From positions 1 to 64,000 of the forward strand of contig ONOU01000008.1 in assembly GCA_900319525.1 (NCBI GenBank): a stretch of DNA of 64,000 nt. The letters are read 5' to 3'. This DNA is from an uncultured Prevotellaceae bacterium. GTDB taxonomy: Bacteria > Bacteroidota > Bacteroidia > Bacteroidales > Muribaculaceae. Shown in pieces: positions 6,180 through 49,750 of this stretch. Below the pieces are notes generated by a model that had not been told where the DNA came from, did no database searches, and saw nothing but the letters and a program-made list of their open reading frames with translations. Within the stretch, counting starts at the first letter, position 1. Each line of letters starts with the position of its first letter. The position numbers and the translations under genes are program-made.

Positions 6180-6971
6180 ATGAACGACATCATCAGGACA
6201 TACGACCCGATCTCGCTCGACGAGATGAGTGGCATCAAGCTGATGAACCGCACCGACACCAAATTTGTCACGACGGTTGACCGGCTCAAGCTGCTGTTGC
6301 AGCTTGCCCGTGAAGACTATCGTGCCCAGGAGATAGGCGGCGAGCGCATTGCATCCTATTACACGGCCTACTTTGACACGCCCGACAACAACATGTACAT
6401 CGTTCACCAGAACGGACATGCGGGACGCCAGAAGCTGCGCATACGTTCCTATGTGGACTCGGGCCTGAACTTCCTGGAGGTGAAGACCAAGAACAACCAT
6501 GGCCGCACCAAGAAGAAACGTGTGGACATGGTGGGATTTGACCCCCAGCACCCCGACCACGGCATCCGCTTCCTGCGTCAGGACGAGCAATTCAGGAGTT
6601 ATGACGAGTTCCTGCGCAAGCATCTGCGCTATGACCCATCGGTGCTGAGCGAGCAACTGGAGAACCACTTTCACCGCATCACACTGGTCAACAAGACCAA
6701 GACCGAGCGGCTGACCATCGACAGCGACCTGTGTTTCCACAATCTGGTTACGGGACATGACGCCAATCTGACCGGGCTAATCATCATCGAGCTGAAACGC
6801 GACGGCCTGCAGCCCTCTCCCATCCTGGGGATACTGCGCGAGCTGCGCATCAAGCCCAGCGGCTTCTCCAAGTACTGCATGGGCTCGGCCCTGACCAACC
6901 CGTCGCTCAAACGCAACAACTTCAAGGAGCGCCTGCGCCTGGTCGATCGCCTGCTGCAACGAGTAAACTAG
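6180..6971 (+). CDS. VTC-domain (polyphosphate polymerase-like) protein
   Basis: A 263-residue cytoplasmic protein of the VTC/CYTH-like tunnel fold. The nucleotide-binding basic residues appear as NRTDTKF (R24, K28), FDTP (65-68), KLRIRSY (K85, R87, R89), FLEVKTK (E100, K102) and a later IIELKRDG acidic strand. In yeast Vtc4 this domain makes polyphosphate from ATP. In bacteria the family is found next to DUF4956 and CotH or Cthe_2159 proteins, and the product is less certain. Here it leads a plus-strand set with DUF4956, DUF2490 and two beta-helix proteins, and is divergent from a phosphate importer, which fits use of phosphate or ATP. The residues needed for binding look complete; whether the product is polyphosphate is inference. 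Confidence 0.85.
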   Translation: MNDIIRTYDPISLDEMSGIKLMNRTDTKFVTTVDRLKLLLQLAREDYRAQEIGGERIASYYTAYFDTPDNNMYIVHQNGHAGRQKLRIRSYVDSGLNFLEVKTKNNHGRTKKKRVDMVGFDPQHPDHGIRFLRQDEQFRSYDEFLRKHLRYDPSVLSEQLENHFHRITLVNKTKTERLTIDSDLCFHNLVTGHDANLTGLIIIELKRDGLQPSPILGILRELRIKPSGFSKYCMGSALTNPSLKRNNFKERLRLVDRLLQRVN

Positions 6972-7025
6972 AAACACATCACATAGATTATTAACTACCT
7001 AAAAAACAAGAGATTTTTAAAAATT

Positions 7026-7766
7026 ATGATAACACTTCAAGACATAACAGGACTTGACGACGGAGTTGCAGATGCCACTCAGGATGCGATCACCAAGGGG
7101 TTGCAGATGAACCTGCTTGACGGTGTGGCCTTGACCGAGATGCTGCTGCGCTTTGCTTTCTTCATGGTGGTACTGTTTTTTATCGTCTATTTCCTGTATT
7201 ACCGCAAGACGCATCGCCGTGACTATTTCTTCACGCTCACCCTGCTCAGCGTGAGCATCTTCTTCCTCATCTTCCTGCTGGGGAGCGTCAAGGTGAAAAT
7301 CGGCTTTGCGCTGGGTCTGTTCGCCATCTTCGGGGTGCTGCGTTACCGCACCGAGACGATACCCGTCAGGGAGATGTCCTACATGTTTGGCGTCATCAGC
7401 CTGTCGGTCATCAACGCGCTGGCCGACTCGTTGAGTTTTGCCGAGCTGCTGGTGCCTAATGTGTCTATCGCGCTGCTCATCTGGCTGTTTGAGGCATTTG
7501 TCCTGCGTGCCAACCTGGCGAGCAAGCTGATCCTGTATGACCGCATCGAGCTCATCACGCCCGAGCGTCGCGAGGAGTTGCTCGAGGACCTGCACAAGCG
7601 CACTGGCCTGACCATCACCAAGGTCAACGTGGGCTCGATCGACTTCCTCAAGGACACGGCCATCCTCAAGATTGAATATGAGAACGATGGCGAGGGGCAC
7701 AGCCACGTTAACGACACACTCAAAATTCCAAAATACGAATGGCAAGAAGTAAAAGAAAACAACTAG
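7026..7766 (+). CDS. DUF4956 inner-membrane protein
   Basis: A 246-residue protein with an N-terminal amphipathic part, membrane segments at about 38-56, 66-86, 91-104, 119-137 and 147-165, and a soluble C-terminal alpha/beta domain (about 175-246). The strongly conserved central stretch FGVLRYRTETIPVREMSYMF is diagnostic of DUF4956. The family is consistently linked with VTC-domain proteins and is a likely membrane partner for export or anchoring of the product, but no activity is established. It begins 55 bases after the VTC gene and its end overlaps the next gene by 28 bases, so the three are probably one operon. Confidence 0.88.
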   Translation: MITLQDITGLDDGVADATQDAITKGLQMNLLDGVALTEMLLRFAFFMVVLFFIVYFLYYRKTHRRDYFFTLTLLSVSIFFLIFLLGSVKVKIGFALGLFAIFGVLRYRTETIPVREMSYMFGVISLSVINALADSLSFAELLVPNVSIALLIWLFEAFVLRANLASKLILYDRIELITPERREELLEDLHKRTGLTITKVNVGSIDFLKDTAILKIEYENDGEGHSHVNDTLKIPKYEWQEVKENN

Positions 7767-27945: not shown

Positions 27946-28109
27946 AAGATGAAAAAAACCCTTGTCCGTGGGGAAAGTTTAGCAGGCCAGGAGGCCTGCC
28001 CGCCTGACATAGCAAGCCCCCTCGCATAAGGCCGCCATAAAAGCATTGATTTCAATGTGTTTATGCACCCTTGGCGATTTTTTCCCCGGACACCAATAAT
28101 TTTAATTTA

Positions 28110-28176
28110 AAAATTTGAATAATTTCCCGTGCGATAGCACGGTTATATTTCCGAGCCGCAATGATGACACAGCCTC
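28110..28176 (+). repeat. 67-bp repeat, copy 1
   Basis: This 67-base sequence recurs exactly at 45174-45240 in the same orientation. It contains the small hairpin CCGTGC-gata-GCACGG (28127-28142). Both copies lie just downstream of an acquired-looking locus (here the restriction enzyme). Confidence 0.8.
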
Positions 28177-40389: not shown

Positions 40390-41937
40390 ATGTTAACAAG
40401 AACGATTGCAGCCGCAGTACAGGGCATTGACGCCATCAAGGTCGAGATCGAGGTGACTGTCGATTATGGTGCCGGATTCATGGTCATCGGACTGCCCGAC
40501 ACCGCCGTCAAGGAGAGTGCCGAGCGGGTGAGGTGCGCCATCAGGCAGACGGGCAATAAGTTCCCGGGGCGCAAAGTGATGGTCAACATGTCACCTGCCG
40601 ACATCAAGAAGGAAGGCTCGGCCTATGACCTGCCCCTGGCCATCGGCATCCTGGCTGCCGACGAGAAGGTACCGGTGGATCGGCTCGACCGCTACATGTT
40701 CATGGGAGAACTGTCGCTGGATGGCTCGCTACGGCCCATCAAGGGCGTGCTGCCCATGGCCATCCTGGCTAGGGAACTGAAACTCGATGGCTTTATCGTT
40801 CCGCAAGCCAATGCTATGGAGGCTGCCGTGGTCAACAACCTCAACATCTACGGTGTGGACAACTTCATTCAGGTGGTGAACTTCTTGAACGGTGACCTCA
40901 CCCTGGAACCAACTGTGGTGGACACACGCGCCGAGTTTGCCAAGGCACAGGGTATCTTCCCCTTTGATTTTGCCGACGTCAAGGGACAGGAGAACGTCAA
41001 GCGCGCCTTTGAGGTTGCCTGTGCAGGTGGACACAACATCCTGCTGGTGGGCAGTCCCGGTTCGGGCAAGTCGATGATGGCCAAGCGCCTGCCGTCCATC
41101 ATGCCGCCGCTCACGCTGAGCGAAGCCCTCGAGACGACCAAGATCCACAGCGTGGCAGGCAAACTGCCCCAGGGAACCACACTGATGACGACGCGACCCT
41201 TCCGCAGTCCGCACCACACCATCTCGCCCGTCGCCCTCGTCGGCGGCGGAACGTTTCCCATGCCCGGGGAAATCTCTCTAGCCCACAATGGCGTGCTCTT
41301 CCTGGATGAGCTGCCCGAGTTCAATCGCTCCGTTTTGGAGGTGATGCGGCAGCCGCTGGAGGACAGGATTATCAGTATCAGTAGGGCAAAATACTCTACA
41401 GAGTACCCGGCGTCGTTCATGCTTGTGGCGTCGATGAATCCGTGCCCGTGCGGGTACTATGGGCACCCCAAGAAGAAGTGCGTCTGCAACGAGTATCAGC
41501 GCACGCACTACATGAGCAAGATTTCGGGGCCGCTGCTAGACCGCATTGACCTCCAGATCGAGGTCCAGCCCGTCGATTTCGACCAGATGTCGTCAAAAGC
41601 CCCAGGTGAGCCCAGCGCCGCCATCCGCCAGCGCGTCATCGCCGCGAGGATGCTGCAGGAGCGCCGCTTCAAGGACGAACCCGGCATCCACTGCAACGCC
41701 CAGATGACCCCGTCCCTGCTGCACAAATACGCCGAACCCAACGCCGCCGGCCTGGAGAAGCTGCGCGACGCCATGGACCGCATGAACATGAGCGCAAGGG
41801 CCTACGACCGCATCCTCAAGGTCGCCCGCACCATCGCCGACCTCGAAGCCTGCGCCGACGTCCTCGACCACCACATCATGGAAGCCATCGCCTACCGCAA
41901 CCTCGACCGCCCCACCTACCTCGGCACCACATTATAA
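40390..41937 (+). CDS. YifB/ComM-family Mg-chelatase-like AAA ATPase
   Basis: A 515-residue protein of the ComM/YifB family. An N-terminal Lon-like domain (to about 185) precedes the AAA module with Walker A GSPGSGKSMMAK, Walker B LFLDELPEF and the zinc-like cysteine cluster PCPCGYYGHPKKKCVC. ComM homologues are branch-migration helicases that extend heteroduplex DNA during natural transformation. The gene is intact, yet two further pieces of a yifB-like gene lie downstream: the last 171 bases (42976-43146) and an internal stretch (44841-44909). The 3' third has a strongly C-ending codon style, also seen in the downstream copy, so the tail may have been exchanged. Confidence 0.92.
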   Translation: MLTRTIAAAVQGIDAIKVEIEVTVDYGAGFMVIGLPDTAVKESAERVRCAIRQTGNKFPGRKVMVNMSPADIKKEGSAYDLPLAIGILAADEKVPVDRLDRYMFMGELSLDGSLRPIKGVLPMAILARELKLDGFIVPQANAMEAAVVNNLNIYGVDNFIQVVNFLNGDLTLEPTVVDTRAEFAKAQGIFPFDFADVKGQENVKRAFEVACAGGHNILLVGSPGSGKSMMAKRLPSIMPPLTLSEALETTKIHSVAGKLPQGTTLMTTRPFRSPHHTISPVALVGGGTFPMPGEISLAHNGVLFLDELPEFNRSVLEVMRQPLEDRIISISRAKYSTEYPASFMLVASMNPCPCGYYGHPKKKCVCNEYQRTHYMSKISGPLLDRIDLQIEVQPVDFDQMSSKAPGEPSAAIRQRVIAARMLQERRFKDEPGIHCNAQMTPSLLHKYAEPNAAGLEKLRDAMDRMNMSARAYDRILKVARTIADLEACADVLDHHIMEAIAYRNLDRPTYLGTTL

Positions 41938-41947
41938 ATACAGAAAT

Positions 41948-42970
41948 ATGTCTGACCAAGAGAGAAATATCATCATCTACCGCACTGCCGATGGCCGTGC
42001 ATCGGTAGCACTTTATGCCCATGACGGCAAGATTTGGGTTAACCAGCAACAGATGGCAGAACTTTTTGCCACCTCCAAGCAAACTATCAGTTATCACATA
42101 GTTAATATCCTGAAGGAAAATGAATTAACTCAAGATTCAGTTGTCAAAGAATTTTTGACAACTGCCGCCGATGGCAAGAGTTACAACGTCATTTTCTATT
42201 CGTTGGAGATGATTATTGCAGTGGGTTATCGTGTACGTGGCGTACGTGGTACTCAATTCCGCCAATGGGCAACGGAACATTTGACCGAGTATTTGGTTAA
42301 GGGATTCACAATGGACGATGAGCGTTTAAAGAATCCCGATGGTCGTCCCGACTATTTTGATGAACTGTTAGCGAGAATTCGGGACATTCGGGCCTCGGAG
42401 AAACGCTTCTACCAAAAAATCCGTGATCTGTTCAAACTAAGCAGCGATTACGATAAAACAGACAAGGCAACACAGATGTTCTTTGCCGAGACGCAGAACA
42501 AATTACTCTATGCTGTCACTCATCAAACCGCCGCCGAATTGATTTGCGTCCGTGCTGATGCCGAGAAGCCCAATATGGGTCTGACCACATGGAAAGGTTC
42601 CATCGTACGCAAGGGCGATATCATCATTGCAAAAAACTATCTGCAAGATGCTGAAATCGACAGGCTGAACCGCCTCGTTGACATCTTCCTGACATCAGCC
42701 GAAATGCGCGTACAAGATAGACGAGACCTCACCCTTGACTACTGGCGTGACAACGTTGACAACCTTCTCGCCTTCCAGGGAATGGACGTTCTCCAAGACA
42801 AAGGCTCCGTCTCCAATGCCCAGATGGAGCATCACGTCCGTGAAGTCTACGCCGATTTCGACACCAAACGCAAGCAACTCGAAGCCCAGCAAGCCGACGC
42901 CGACGACCTAAAACTCCTCGAAGACATCGAGAAACGAATCCTCAACCAATCAAGTAACGAGCAAGAATAG
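41948..42970 (+). CDS. RhuM-family protein
   Basis: A 340-residue protein. The N-terminal domain ([20 protein letters not shown] and [19 protein letters not shown]) is the winged-helix-like BRO/RhuM DNA-binding part; the rest, with YVKVG-like [20 protein letters not shown] and [17 protein letters not shown], is a Fic/DOC-related fold without the Fic HPFxxGN motif. RhuM was first named in a Salmonella pathogenicity island, and the family is often linked to mobile DNA and toxin-antitoxin loci. It starts ten bases after yifB and is more AT-rich than yifB. A copy of the yifB 3' end follows it directly, so it appears to sit inside a cassette. Confidence 0.88.
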
Positions 42971-42975
42971 ATGGT

Positions 42976-43146
42976 GACGCCATGGAACGCATGAACATGT
43001 CTGCCCGCACCTACGACCGCATCCTCAAGGTCGCCCGCACCATCGCCGACCTCGAAGGCACCGCCGACGTCCTCGACCACCACATCATGGAAGCCATCGC
43101 CTACAGCAACCTCGACCGCCCCACTTACCTCAGCACCTCGTTATAA
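42976..43146 (+). pseudogene. Second copy of the yifB 3' end
   Basis: 171 bases encode [20 protein letters not shown] and onwards to a TAA, matching the last 57 codons of the intact yifB (41767-41937), with only scattered differences. It begins directly behind rhuM and ends with the same stop context. It has no start and cannot be a gene; it is a scar of cassette insertion or recombination at the yifB 3' end. Confidence 0.9.
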
Positions 43147-43204
43147 ATCAGAGGTATGTACAATTTTGATAAATCTTTTTATTGACTATTTAATCATCAA
43201 CACA

Positions 43205-44641
43205 ATGAGTACTTTGAAATATTTTGATACTCTAAAAAATGCTTTAGATGTTTATCAGTTTGCTAATGCAAATGAAGAACATCTCAATGAAGTGGTTTTC
43301 CCTAAAGTTGCAACACAACTTTTATACGGAGGCTTTTTTCTGCTCAATGGTAAAGAGAAATTATATCTCAGAGAAATAGAGTTTTACTTCATAAATATGG
43401 ATGGCAGTATTCAAGAGGATAAACTGTATAGAAAAGATTTGCCTGACGATGAATGGTTAGAGGCAGGTACTCTTTTCCCGCACAACTCTGGCATTGATAT
43501 CACGTTTGAAGATCACGAGAAGCATAAGTTTCGCGCATCTGTATTGATTAGAGCCTTTGACCTTTTCAATATGGATAATTCCCCGATTATACTTGATAAT
43601 GGTCGGTCGCTCTCGGTTTACGACATACTTTTATCAAGGAGTAACATATTCGATGGAGTGTCTATCAAGTGGATGGATGAATGGACAGAACCTCGCACCA
43701 AGATCAAAACACAACAGCGACAAGGCTTGAAAGGAGCCCAAGCATATAGGACATGGAACTTTAGAAGGAATGAGAACTTGTTCATCTCACTCGACAAAGA
43801 GGTTAATAAAGTATATTTCTCAGATAAAGTCATGGTAAAGCATGATATCTCTCAGATATACAAAGAGATTTGCGATATACTCGATGAGTATGGCATAAAA
43901 CATGAACTACTGCCCCACACCAAGGATATTTGGTGCCGAGATTACATGCCTGTACAGATGTCTCCTAATCGCTTCGTGCAATATGTATATGATCCAGACT
44001 ATTTGGATAATGATCAATACCGAAACACCAAGACTTCGCCTGATGCCGTATGCGATGCCATCCATCTTGCCAGGTCCAAGTCTAAACTCATCTTGGACGG
44101 CGGTAACATCATCAGAACGCCTCAAGGAGTTATCATGACAAGAAAGGCTTATAATTCCAACAAAATGAGTCAAAAGGAGTTTGAGGACATCTTTAAGCAA
44201 AACTTTGGGGTCAACAAAATAACTTGGTTAAATTGGGACAGACGTGAGATCTACGGTCATGCCGACGGCATCGTACGATACATCAGTGCCGACCATGTTC
44301 TTATGACCAATTATTCTGAAATTGATAAAATGAGTGCAATTTCGTTTCGAAAAGCCTTAGAACAGGATGGATACAAAGTAGAAGAACTCCACTATTCGTC
44401 TAATGCGTTACCGAGAAGTGATGACGATCTTAGTTGGGCGTACATCAACTTCCTCCAGACTTCAAAGGTCATAATAGTTCCTCTTCTTGGTATTGAAAAA
44501 CAAGATGCAGAAGCATTGAAGCAGATTCAAGACACTTATTCAGGTATCGATGTTAAGGGCGTTTATGCCTTACCTCTACTAAAAGAAGATGGTGGATTTA
44601 ACTGTTTCAGTTGGACAGTTAATGAAATAATTGATAGATAG
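43205..44641 (+). CDS. Unknown N-terminal domain fused to a peptidyl-arginine/agmatine deiminase-like domain
   Basis: A 478-residue protein, strongly AT-rich for this genome. Residues about 195-478 form a guanidine-modifying deiminase domain of the PAD_porph/agmatine deiminase type: IWCRDYMPVQ, GHADGIVRYI and the C-terminal cysteine in GGFNCFSWT supply the Asp-His-Cys catalytic set. Residues 1-190 are a separate domain (TQLLYGGFFLLNGKEKLYLR and FPHNSGIDITFE) that I cannot name; the spacing faintly recalls 3-methyladenine DNA glycosylase folds. There is no signal peptide, so it acts in the cytoplasm. The start at 43205 is favoured; a weaker ATG is 39 bases upstream. It is bracketed by two yifB fragments. 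Confidence 0.8.
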   Translation: MSTLKYFDTLKNALDVYQFANANEEHLNEVVFPKVATQLLYGGFFLLNGKEKLYLREIEFYFINMDGSIQEDKLYRKDLPDDEWLEAGTLFPHNSGIDITFEDHEKHKFRASVLIRAFDLFNMDNSPIILDNGRSLSVYDILLSRSNIFDGVSIKWMDEWTEPRTKIKTQQRQGLKGAQAYRTWNFRRNENLFISLDKEVNKVYFSDKVMVKHDISQIYKEICDILDEYGIKHELLPHTKDIWCRDYMPVQMSPNRFVQYVYDPDYLDNDQYRNTKTSPDAVCDAIHLARSKSKLILDGGNIIRTPQGVIMTRKAYNSNKMSQKEFEDIFKQNFGVNKITWLNWDRREIYGHADGIVRYISADHVLMTNYSEIDKMSAISFRKALEQDGYKVEELHYSSNALPRSDDDLSWAYINFLQTSKVIIVPLLGIEKQDAEALKQIQDTYSGIDVKGVYALPLLKEDGGFNCFSWTVNEIIDR

Positions 44642-44840
44642 CCAAAAATGCGCCTTTTGAGATAACATGGGCTCGAATCCGCAAGAAAAAAGGGACGAAT
44701 CTTTTGATATAATGTTTGTGTCTTTGTTCTGAGAAACGTTTATCTTTCTGGATGTGATTGGTTTCCTGGTGAATATGGTGCTTGTTTCGGTGGAGTTGGT
44801 GCAACTGGGGACGGCTAAAAAATGGGGCAAGTTGTTCCGC

Positions 44841-44909
44841 TTGGATGAGCTGTCTGAGTTCAATCGCTCAGTTTTGGAGGTGATGCGGCAGCCGTTAGAG
44901 GACAGGATT
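44841..44909 (+). pseudogene. Internal yifB fragment (Walker B region)
   Basis: These 69 bases match 41302-41370 of the intact yifB at 63 of 69 positions, encoding [20 protein letters not shown]. The flanking sequence does not match yifB. It is therefore a scar of a second, partial yifB copy. Confidence 0.85.
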
Positions 44910-45173
44910 TTCTCGATTTCAAAGGCGATCTGGACGAACTGGAGTACCGACTCGAAGAATGAGCCGAGGGTCACTTCTCAAACAATAGTAGTCGTACTAA
45001 CAACTGATTGATCTGAGATTTCTGATCGGTTTTCGCAAACTAGAGTGTGTCATAATTCAAATGCTGCAATAATAACCGCCCTGCAGGCGGGAACCTTTAG
45101 CTCGGCGAAGCCAAATTTATCAAATTTTTAAATTAAAATTAATCATTGATTTATATTAATGATATTTTTAAAT

Positions 45174-45240
45174 AAAATTTGAATAATTTCCCGTGCGATA
45201 GCACGGTTATATTTCCGAGCCGCAATGATGACACAGCCTC
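45174..45240 (+). repeat. 67-bp repeat, copy 2
   Basis: Identical over 67 bases to 28110-28176 in the same orientation, with the same CCGTGC-gata-GCACGG hairpin. It lies at the right end of the yifB-associated island. Confidence 0.8.
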
Positions 45241-45331: not shown

Positions 45332-46951
45332 TTACTTGTAGAGGAAGCGTTTGATGGTTTTCTTCGGGGTTTTCTCGAAGGGTTCGTTCATCATTTCCAC
45401 TCTTGCGATCTTGCTGTATGCGGGGAGGGACTTGTTGGCAGCCTCGCGGATTTGTCCAGGAATGGTGGCCCTGGTCGCCTCGTCCATGTCGGCGGGGAGT
45501 TCGGTATAGACGAGCGCAGTTATCTTGCCGTCACGGTCCACCACAAGGCATTCGTCCACATTCGGGCAGTTGGACAGGACTGCCTCCACCTCTTCGGGGT
45601 AGATATTCTGGCCCGATGAGTTCAGGATCATGGATTTGATGCGTCCACGGATAAAGATGTTGCCCTTCTCATCCATCACACCCAAGTCACCGGTTCGGAA
45701 CCAGCCGTCCTGGGTAAATGCGGCTGCAGTAGCTTCGGGATTCTTGTAGTATCCGATGGTCAGGTTGCGTCCACGCGCCTGGATTTCGCCGGGGACATGG
45801 TGCGGGTCTTCTGAGTCGATGCGGACTTCATGTACGGGCTTTCCGCATGAGCCTGGCACAAAATTGGTCCACCACTCATATCCCAGCAGCGGGCAGGCTT
45901 CGGTCATGCCATAGCCCACCGTATAGGGCAGACGTATCTTTTTAAAACACTGCTCGGCTTCGGGATTGAGCGCTGCACCACCCATGATGAAACACTGCAC
46001 AGCGCCGCCAAAGGCCTCGATGACCTTGTTGCGGGCCTTGCGGTATATCAGCCAGTTCAGCACGGGGATGGCCAGCAGCGATTTGGCTTTTTCCAGCGCC
46101 GGCTTGATGGCGTTGGCATATATTTTCTCCATCACCAGCGGCACAGTGACCACCATATAGGGCTTGATGTCCTGCATCGCCTTGAGCAGGGTGGTGGGCG
46201 ACGGCGTCTTGCCCAGGAAATAGACGGTGACGCCATCCACGTTGGGATGAATGAACTCGATGGCCAGCCCATACATGTGCGCCAGAGGCAACATCGAGAC
46301 AACGGTCTGGCCAGGATGGTTCGGGAAGTGGGTGTTGGCAAAGTCGTCGGTGTCGGACATCGCCCCGTAGGTGAGCATCACGCCCTTGGGGTTACCCGTA
46401 GTACCCGACGTGTAATTGATGATGGCCAGGTCATCGATATTGTCGGTATCATAAGAAACCTGCTCAGGCCACAGCCCATCGGGATAATGTTGCGCGAAAG
46501 CCTGTTTGCGCTGCATCCAAGCCTGAGCCACCACATCATCCCGGTTCCACAACAAATTGCCGTCCCTAACATTGATGGCGGCCTTGAGTTCAGGCATGTC
46601 GTCGGGATTCATCTTTGCCCAGATGTCGTCGTCAACAAAGAGCACAACACTATCAGAGTGCTTTGTCAGCGTTGAGACGCTGTCGGGATGAAAGTCGGCC
46701 AAAAGCGGGACCGCCACACGGGCATTCACATTGATGCCCCAAAAGGTCATTGCCCACCGTGCCGAGTTGCGCGCGCAGATAGCGATTTTCTCACCCTTAC
46801 CAATGCCAGCCGCAGTGAAGAAGATGTTGAATTGCTCAACGTTTGTGGCCAGTTGGGCATAAGTAAAGGAGTCGCCGTTGTAGTCACACAAGGCTTTCCG
46901 GGTCCATTGCTCGCGGACAGTACTTTCCAAATTTGACAGATAGTGCTTCAT
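45332..46951 (-). CDS. AMP-forming acyl-CoA ligase
   Basis: A 539-residue adenylate-forming enzyme that activates a fatty or other carboxylic acid with ATP and CoA. The P-loop NYTSGTTGNPKGVMLTYG, the A5 motif YGMTEACPLLGYE, the A7 DLGVMDEKGNIFIRGRIK and a C-terminal lysine in KKTIKRFLYK are intact. It lacks a membrane anchor. It is a single gene with a promoter box at 47028-47035; long-chain acyl-CoA ligase is the likely assignment, but the substrate cannot be read. Confidence 0.9.
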   Translation of the reverse strand: MKHYLSNLESTVREQWTRKALCDYNGDSFTYAQLATNVEQFNIFFTAAGIGKGEKIAICARNSARWAMTFWGINVNARVAVPLLADFHPDSVSTLTKHSDSVVLFVDDDIWAKMNPDDMPELKAAINVRDGNLLWNRDDVVAQAWMQRKQAFAQHYPDGLWPEQVSYDTDNIDDLAIINYTSGTTGNPKGVMLTYGAMSDTDDFANTHFPNHPGQTVVSMLPLAHMYGLAIEFIHPNVDGVTVYFLGKTPSPTTLLKAMQDIKPYMVVTVPLVMEKIYANAIKPALEKAKSLLAIPVLNWLIYRKARNKVIEAFGGAVQCFIMGGAALNPEAEQCFKKIRLPYTVGYGMTEACPLLGYEWWTNFVPGSCGKPVHEVRIDSEDPHHVPGEIQARGRNLTIGYYKNPEATAAAFTQDGWFRTGDLGVMDEKGNIFIRGRIKSMILNSSGQNIYPEEVEAVLSNCPNVDECLVVDRDGKITALVYTELPADMDEATRATIPGQIREAANKSLPAYSKIARVEMMNEPFEKTPKKTIKRFLYK

Positions 46952-47205: not shown

Positions 47206-47246
47206 CAAATGGCCGTGGATGGAGACTTGCCATCCACGGCCATTTG
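47206..47246. terminator. Perfect 17-bp hairpin downstream of pyrH
   Basis: CAAATGGCCGTGGATGG (47206-47222) pairs perfectly with 47230-47246 around a seven-base loop. It lies about 110 bases past the pyrH stop on the minus strand and probably ends that transcript. Confidence 0.65.
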
Positions 47247-49705: not shown

Positions 49706-49750
49706 AACATCAGGTCCGCCCGACGTCAGCAGTCGGGCGGACCTGATGTT
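49706..49750. terminator. Perfect 19-bp bidirectional terminator
   Basis: AACATCAGGTCCGCCCGAC (49706-49724) pairs perfectly with 49732-49750 around GTCAGCA. It separates the convergent zinc-ribbon and peptidase genes. Confidence 0.8.

Follow-up and report, generated by a model that had tools for sequence, protein, structure and literature searches.

How does an intact gene come to be followed by pieces of itself? The locus that raises this question lies in a stretch of 64,000 nucleotides (the window) on contig ONOU01000008.1 of assembly GCA_900319525.1, from an uncultured Prevotellaceae bacterium that GTDB places in the Muribaculaceae. There yifB, a comM-type AAA+ gene, is intact, and downstream of it lies an array of cargo genes and yifB pieces. 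An earlier interpretation made from the letters alone (the sequence-only reading) had given the order as intact yifB, rhuM, a 171-bp copy of the yifB 3′ end, a deiminase-fusion gene, and an internal piece of yifB, and we confirm it. That yifB is a repeated insertion site, with events leaving pieces of the gene behind, was also proposed then and is borne out by the relatives: junctions at codon 305 recur, the cargo differs, and at least two matches to the 3′ end are found in 47 of 101 genomes of the genus.

Our reading is that cassettes insert site specifically at yifB codons 305-307 and replace the 3′ half of the gene, with a recombinase acting in trans. We give this statement as a whole a probability of about 0.5; site-specific insertion with replacement of the 3′ half, leaving the catalyst unnamed, seems to us quite likely. 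Such insertion accounts for four things described below: the stacking of yifB pieces, the right end, the constancy of the junction, and the hybrid nature of the intact gene.

Fixed junctions and right ends

Behind unrelated cargo, many displaced yifB halves begin at the Walker B codon 305 and, when aligned there, are preceded by a common sequence that is not yifB. We call this sequence the class A right end. Across 50 copies, conservation is strongest beside the core and fades past about position -95, and the end (~95 bp) is independent of the cargo. Recognisable yifB codons 308-340 follow 34 of the 50 copies, and the codon-305 junction occurs two or more times within single arrays. Searched genome wide at E <= 0.001, the class A right end was listed at 56 places in 32 of the 101 genus genomes; for 53 of the 56, the contig or stretch also holds yifB or a piece of it, and none was shown in L164, L165, and L167 (L and G numbers denote loci and genomes). 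The genome of the window is not among the 32 at this threshold. A degraded copy in the window, overlooked in the sequence-only reading, was found just before the internal yifB piece by a local search that allowed E up to 0.01.

Another class of displaced halves, class B, begins at codon 281 behind a sharp 28-bp end with unrelated DNA upstream (9 cases). With at most one mismatch, the class B motif was found at 20 sites in 15 of 397 genomes of the family, and a reversed control gave 1 hit. In 19 of 20 fetched loci, two of which (both from G051) overlap and show one and the same site, yifB comes directly after the motif; only a one-mismatch site in G260 departs from this. An exact class B site is present in G314, which belongs to another genus and whose YifB is 58% identical. 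A reading of the class B end as a dif/XerCD site found no match in 8 genomes to an Escherichia coli-type dif pattern at up to one mismatch, which leaves room for a divergent dif.

Certain class A right ends enter DNA that is not yifB and that carries repeated TAGTCCCTAAC...GTTAAGGACTA inverted repeats (L046 8339, L062 10307, and L070 10177). The same inverted-repeat context is seen at the class A ends at L162 389, L163 147, and L064 8613.

The hybrid history of intact yifB

The sequence-only reading had also suspected that the 3′ part of the intact gene was foreign, and a different history for this part is indeed what we find. Taking 24 intact genes from the clade of the window, we correlated distances in 30-codon windows with those in the rest of the 5′ half. 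Within the 5′ half, r ranged overall from 0.08 to 0.72. It was 0.55 to 0.72 in the three windows up to codon 300, dropped to 0.15 at codons 286-315, and did not exceed 0.11 further on. With 12-codon windows, significance extended to codons 294-305 (P <= 0.017) and was lost in later windows (P >= 0.126). This loss of the 5′-half signal at about codon 305 implies that the 3′ half of yifB has been exchanged.

In two sister pairs of genes, divergence is 3 to 4% upstream of codon 305 and 15% over codons 305-400, with the change at or just after codon 307. Codon 305 itself is TTG in 46 of the 50 right-end copies, in 1 of 33 other intact genes, and in none of the 24 intact genes of the clade. Together, the sister pairs and the TTG codon bracket the exchange to a GA[T/C]GA core.

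The displaced halves might in principle be local duplicates of the resident gene. Among 18 cases, however, the resident intact gene was the nearest relative in only 1, which speaks against local duplication and leaves it little support as the source of the yifB pieces.

A variable site with diverse cargo

When named genomes were scanned for relatives of YifB, 43 loci were obtained; most come from Bacteroidales assemblies of rumen or foregut origin that bear the label Bacteroidales, Prevotellaceae, or Muribaculaceae. A query consisting of the last 56 residues of YifB, which also gave the 3′-end count above, finds a match in 92 of the 101 genus genomes. With the YifB 3′ half as the query, at least two matches occur in 17 of 26 genus genomes and in 10 of 221 genomes of other genera, although some of these multiple matches may be split genes or paralogues. 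A yifB piece is present in 36 of 54 loci with at least 3 kb of downstream sequence, and a right end of either class is present in at least 26 of the 54; these loci include two from other genera (L172 and L173), are not a random sample, since they favour genomes with several matches, and comprise one set of mostly single-match genomes in which class A ends were not sought. An acyl-CoA-ligase-like gene marks the far flank. Its distance from yifB is 1.2 to 12.2 kb (median, 6.5 kb) in the 20 of 64 loci with both in reach, and its homologue in L068 matches acyl-CoA ligase models below their cut-offs. The gene was not found when 20 short stretches from other genera were examined, and these therefore offer no empty site for comparison.

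In the window and in most loci read, yifB is intact, and only displaced 3′ pieces lie besides. The cargo between these pieces is unlike from locus to locus, with defence, surface, and regulatory types. Its families include RhuM, ORF6N, FRG, AAA_14/DUF4143, SEFIR/TIR, Thoeris-like ThsA and ThsB, McrBC, AbiEii-like, and YhcG, and further SocA/Panacea, a BspA-type leucine-rich repeat protein with dockerin, a TonB-type receptor, a radical SAM protein, and an M48 peptidase. We checked whether all relatives share an identical rhuM and deiminase arrangement with the same fragments, and they do not. The array is thus real and variable, and the region downstream of yifB is a variable insertion site.

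Outside the genus, locus L201 (G140) has a second yifB piece at 6885-7262, matching codons 386-511 at 67%, about 5 kb past the intact gene; yifB pieces thus also occur beyond the genus of the window. L161 (G067:C8:48500-56500) has a right end and small yifB pieces on a contig other than that of the main array and is possibly a second array site. Two contigs labelled Lentisphaeria and Pseudobutyrivibrio (L149 and L159) carry a Bacteroidales-type yifB, probably through binning contamination.

How a cassette may insert

In our reading, a class A cassette consists of a new yifB 3′ half, cargo, and the ~95-bp right end, in that order. On insertion at the GA[T/C]GA core, the resident 5′ half would be joined to the incoming 3′ half, leaving yifB whole, and the right end would become fused to the displaced old 3′ half. 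Repeated insertion at one point would stack cassettes, the newest adjoining yifB, while the old halves decay. Positions 44738-44912 of the window would then be the decayed product of one class A insertion; the window also holds the rhuM-plus-tail unit. The internal yifB piece within this stretch (44842-44912) is 71 bp, 92% identical to yifB 41303-41373, and matches codons 305-328; its E value of 2.3e-21 in a whole-genome search shows that it is not a chance match. The sequence-only reading had seen this piece in a trimmed form, as 63 identities over 69 bp.

The moving unit would be a free cassette, and we looked for carriers. No exact match to the class A right-end pattern or the 3′-end DNA pattern was found in IMG/VR, and none in near mode among plasmids in the carrier search. 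Among phage records, weak matches turned up in fecal clones and two other records, and most of these were to yifB.

Several observations weigh against insertion as outlined here. No recognisable yifB follows 16 of the 50 class A right ends, and right ends are absent from the tail pieces, which start at codons 455-478. Nor is either class of right end more like the resident left arm than expected by chance: for class A, 623 of 2,000 shuffles were as good, with a rank of 688 among 1,515 windows, and for the class B end, 109 of 200 shuffles were as good, so that matched arms were rejected for both. In the history test, the fall of r is stepwise and sets in near codon 278, with r going from 0.64 to 0.20 over codons 274-305; some windows deep in the 5′ half are also low (r, 0.08 to 0.18), and the third closest pair, L044/L056, changes around codons 321-330 and not at 305. 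For the 15 genes of clade B, the 5′ signal wanes long before codon 281 is reached; no sharp break was seen there, and none can be claimed. On average, the distance from displaced halves to the resident gene is slightly smaller than that to other genes (0.208 versus 0.240; P = 0.03; 18 cases), and in a stricter set of 6 halves the corresponding P value is 0.83. Finally, no tyrosine or serine recombinase (PF00589 or PF00239) match falls within the arrays of the 14 genomes searched, and no integron-type integrase lies beside an array in that search. Individual Pfam scans of ~60 cargo open reading frames (ORFs) revealed no site-specific recombinase domain, one IS1595 transposase, and none of the Tn7 genes tnsABC and tniQ. 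PADLOC and NCBIfam scans of 120 cargo ORFs listed the 25 commonest families, and a rare recombinase cannot be excluded by them. The array-bearing genome G082, which is 88% complete, has two PF00589 and two PF00239 matches.

A probable second process at the yifB 3′ end

The sequence-only reading described two cassettes, each closed by a piece of yifB. The pieces are there; they are not of equal kind, since the 71-bp piece lies behind a dedicated right end at a fixed codon and the 171-bp piece has no such end. Tail pieces like the latter have junctions that go with their cargo: the junction is at codon 460 next to rhuM in five loci, including the window, and it differs with other cargo; the tail of L073 has decayed. 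Given its cargo-linked start codon and its lack of a right end, the 171-bp piece is better read as a homology arm or a deletion product; a second site-specific insertion is less likely.

The rhuM unit of the window is 96 to 100% identical to that of L077 in 13 of 14 60-bp windows (78% in the other), compared to 70 to 88% identity in the 5′ part of yifB; the units of L064 and L073 are less close to the window than that of L077. Diversity at fourfold sites in the window's clade is 0.35 to 0.57 in codons 1-340 and falls gradually to 0.024 at codons 481-500, whereas 20 genes of other genera have 0.55 to 0.71 up to codon 360 and 0.49 at codons 481-500. These similarities suggest that the rhuM-plus-tail unit probably spreads by ordinary recombination through homology at the yifB 3′ end.

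An attC-like hairpin in the tails was also considered. Two 3′ ends, folded as single-stranded DNA in four stretches, gave z values of 0.13 to 0.74 and folded no better than shuffles, which argues that no attC-like hairpin is present there. Some tail pieces with differing cargo have a short insert (around CAAACAACTGATTAGTCTGA) near codon 486 (L062 12095, L069 9517, L070 2888, L073 3410 and 10452, and L074 5306), and similar letters occur at 44971-45029 in the window. It could represent either a small insertion element or an end of a third type.

Features of the window

The features of the locus are collected in Table 1. Between the array and the ligase gene, an AT-rich interspersed repeat occupies 45035-45240; a further copy lies at 28096-28176, and about 28 more matches are spread over many contigs of the genome, which totals 3.28 Mb in 54 contigs, on both strands. 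Intergenic perfect inverted repeats resembling terminators, with 7-bp loops, are found at 49706-49750 (19-bp arms) and 47206-47246 (17-bp arms).

Table 1. Positions in the window of yifB, the pieces and cargo downstream of it, and the far flank
Feature	Position	Strand	Basis
yifB (comM-type AAA+), intact, single ORF, 515 residues	40390..41937	+	Mg_chelatase, ChlI, and Mg_chelatase_C domains
Codons 305-307, Walker B (L-D-E), putative exchange point; GATGA core at 41305-41309	41302..41310	+	Junctions in relatives; history change in intact genes
3′ half of intact yifB, putatively cassette borne	41302..41937	+	Loss of 5′-half signal from about codon 305 (24 genes); very low fourfold-site diversity at codons 481-500 versus other genera
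rhuM, first cargo gene	41948..42970	+	PF13310, E 7.5e-108; same unit adjoins yifB in other species
yifB 3′-end copy, 171 bp, codons 460-515 plus stop; tail piece without right end	42976..43146	+	Sequence match, 91% identical
PAD_porph-domain fusion ORF, second cargo gene	43166..44641	+	ATG at 43205; PAD_porph in C-terminal half, E 1.1e-30
Class A right end, degraded copy, 103 bp	44738..44840	+	Local search, 71% identity
Displaced yifB 3′ half, remnant from codon 305	44841..44912	+	Match to intact yifB
Acyl-CoA-ligase-like gene, far flank of variable stretch	45332..46951	-	ORF; downstream of yifB within reach in 20 of 64 loci

Other explanations

The main rival to a recombinase acting in trans is homing. 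A free-standing GIY-YIG-like or HNH nuclease would cut yifB at Walker B, and repair would copy in the donor's 3′ half, cargo, and right end, leaving the old half behind; other cargo would be carried along, and the nuclease gene would later be lost. A GIY-YIG-like ORF does lie directly after yifB in L063, L065, L066, and L076, followed in three of them by an HNH ORF whose product contains repeats associated with homing endonucleases (PF18780; E 1.8e-19). The GIY-YIG-like ORF has strong matches in 4 of the 101 genomes, all at these places after yifB, and the HNH ORF likewise in 4 of the 101, all in arrays. Divergence in the pair L059/L067 is raised left of codon 305, and this, together with the stepwise fall of r, could reflect co-conversion; an equal geometry is described for fungal mitochondria (Beaudet et al. 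2013, PMC3630166). However, such ORFs are rare; the GIY-YIG match falls under its family cut-off (16.4 versus 22.6 bits; E 0.012), divergence left of the point is not raised in L042/L070, and homing does not itself explain how a ~95-bp end is kept with unrelated cargo. The window has neither ORF, and no viral relatives of the GIY-YIG-like ORF were found. Homing seems unlikely to us, and we prefer a recombinase in trans.

Under homologous recombination alone, units with yifB on one side and a further yifB 3′ end on the other would move between species through homology, and the codon-305 junction would trace back to one ancient accident. The near identity of the rhuM unit between the window and L077 next to a divergent yifB 5′ part, the gradual fall of diversity toward the 3′ end, and the cargo-specific tail junctions all fit. 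Yet this explanation predicts scattered left crossovers, and the 5′-half signal is instead lost near codon 305; the junction also recurs within single arrays, and a second fixed junction exists elsewhere in yifB. We judge it improbable. A little more doubtful still are Tsy-like or Tn7-like autonomous elements that have decayed, with their enzymes lost from the copies seen. Tn6022 and Tsy do target the Walker B region of comM, and Tsy leaves a 3′ portion of the gene downstream (PMC10293859); right ends here are often degraded, as in the window. Against such decay, comM is split in Tsy and Tn6022, while yifB is in one piece at many loci here, and the ~60 cargo ORFs yielded no site-specific recombinase domain and the single transposase mentioned above. 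Misjoining of repeated yifB pieces in metagenome bins deserves thought, since the named relatives are metagenome-assembled and repeats are prone to misassembly, but the structure recurs across projects and hosts, on contigs of up to 345 to 450 kb, with varied cargo and common junctions, and an artefact is very improbable.

Relation to known elements

AbaR-type islands lie in and split comM. The sequence-only reading had compared the locus to the comM islands of Acinetobacter; the role as an insertion target carries over, and the splitting does not, yifB being unsplit here. Tsy transposons (YRec-HTH-TnsF, some with a GIY-YIG nuclease) sit at comM, and TnsF of Tn6022 requires the comM Walker B region (Faure et al. 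2023, PMC10293859). The likeness to Tsy lies in attachment at Walker B of the same gene (at codons 305-307 here), in a 3′ portion of that gene past the cargo, and in an occasional GIY-YIG nuclease, or here a GIY-YIG-like ORF. Tsy splits its target into 5′ and 3′ portions, whereas here the incoming 3′ half keeps yifB whole and the cassettes are stacked; Tsy has YRec and TnsF, whereas the arrays of the 14 genomes have no PF00589 match (no TnsF-specific model was used). Tn7-like elements of the Tn6022 type have the same target gene in common with the array and differ in splitting comM and in their Tn7 genes, of which none was seen among the individually read cargo ORFs.

In fungal mitochondria, mobile ORFs (mORFs) replace the C termini of genes, the native C termini lying downstream (Beaudet et al. 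2013, PMC3630166). In these elements a foreign 3′ end replaces the native one, cargo comes next, and the displaced native end lies downstream, as here; mORFs carry LAGLIDADG or GIY-YIG endonucleases and concern single organelle genes, whereas the cargo here is diverse, stacked, and mostly nuclease free. A literature search, thin in subscription journals, found no description of a yifB cassette array among its best matches.

In integrons and composite islands of the staphylococcal cassette chromosome type, cassettes lacking a recombinase of their own can stack at one attachment site. The site here differs in being inside a housekeeping gene, each unit carries a long yifB piece, and no integrase lies beside the array in the 14 genomes searched. 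One can tentatively envision, at rather less than even odds, an integron-like system with a housekeeping gene as its attachment site, in which each recombinase-free cassette brings an extra yifB 3′ half together with a dedicated end site of one of two types (codon 305 or 281), a trans enzyme captures the cassettes at yifB, arrays of defence, surface, and regulatory genes stack up, and YifB remains functional.

We regard the array as a variant of the elements that target comM/yifB, one whose enzyme was not found in the arrays. This Bacteroidales case joins Tsy and Tn6022 at the Walker B landing site of comM/yifB. If our reading is true, single genes and small operons, including defence-like ones (McrBC, Thoeris-like, and AbiE-like), would be able to stack in a lineage of gut bacteria without an adjoining recombinase and without breakage of the target, and the discarded 3′ halves would form a legible record of past insertions. 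The defined junction offers a handle for seeking the enzyme that catalyzes them.

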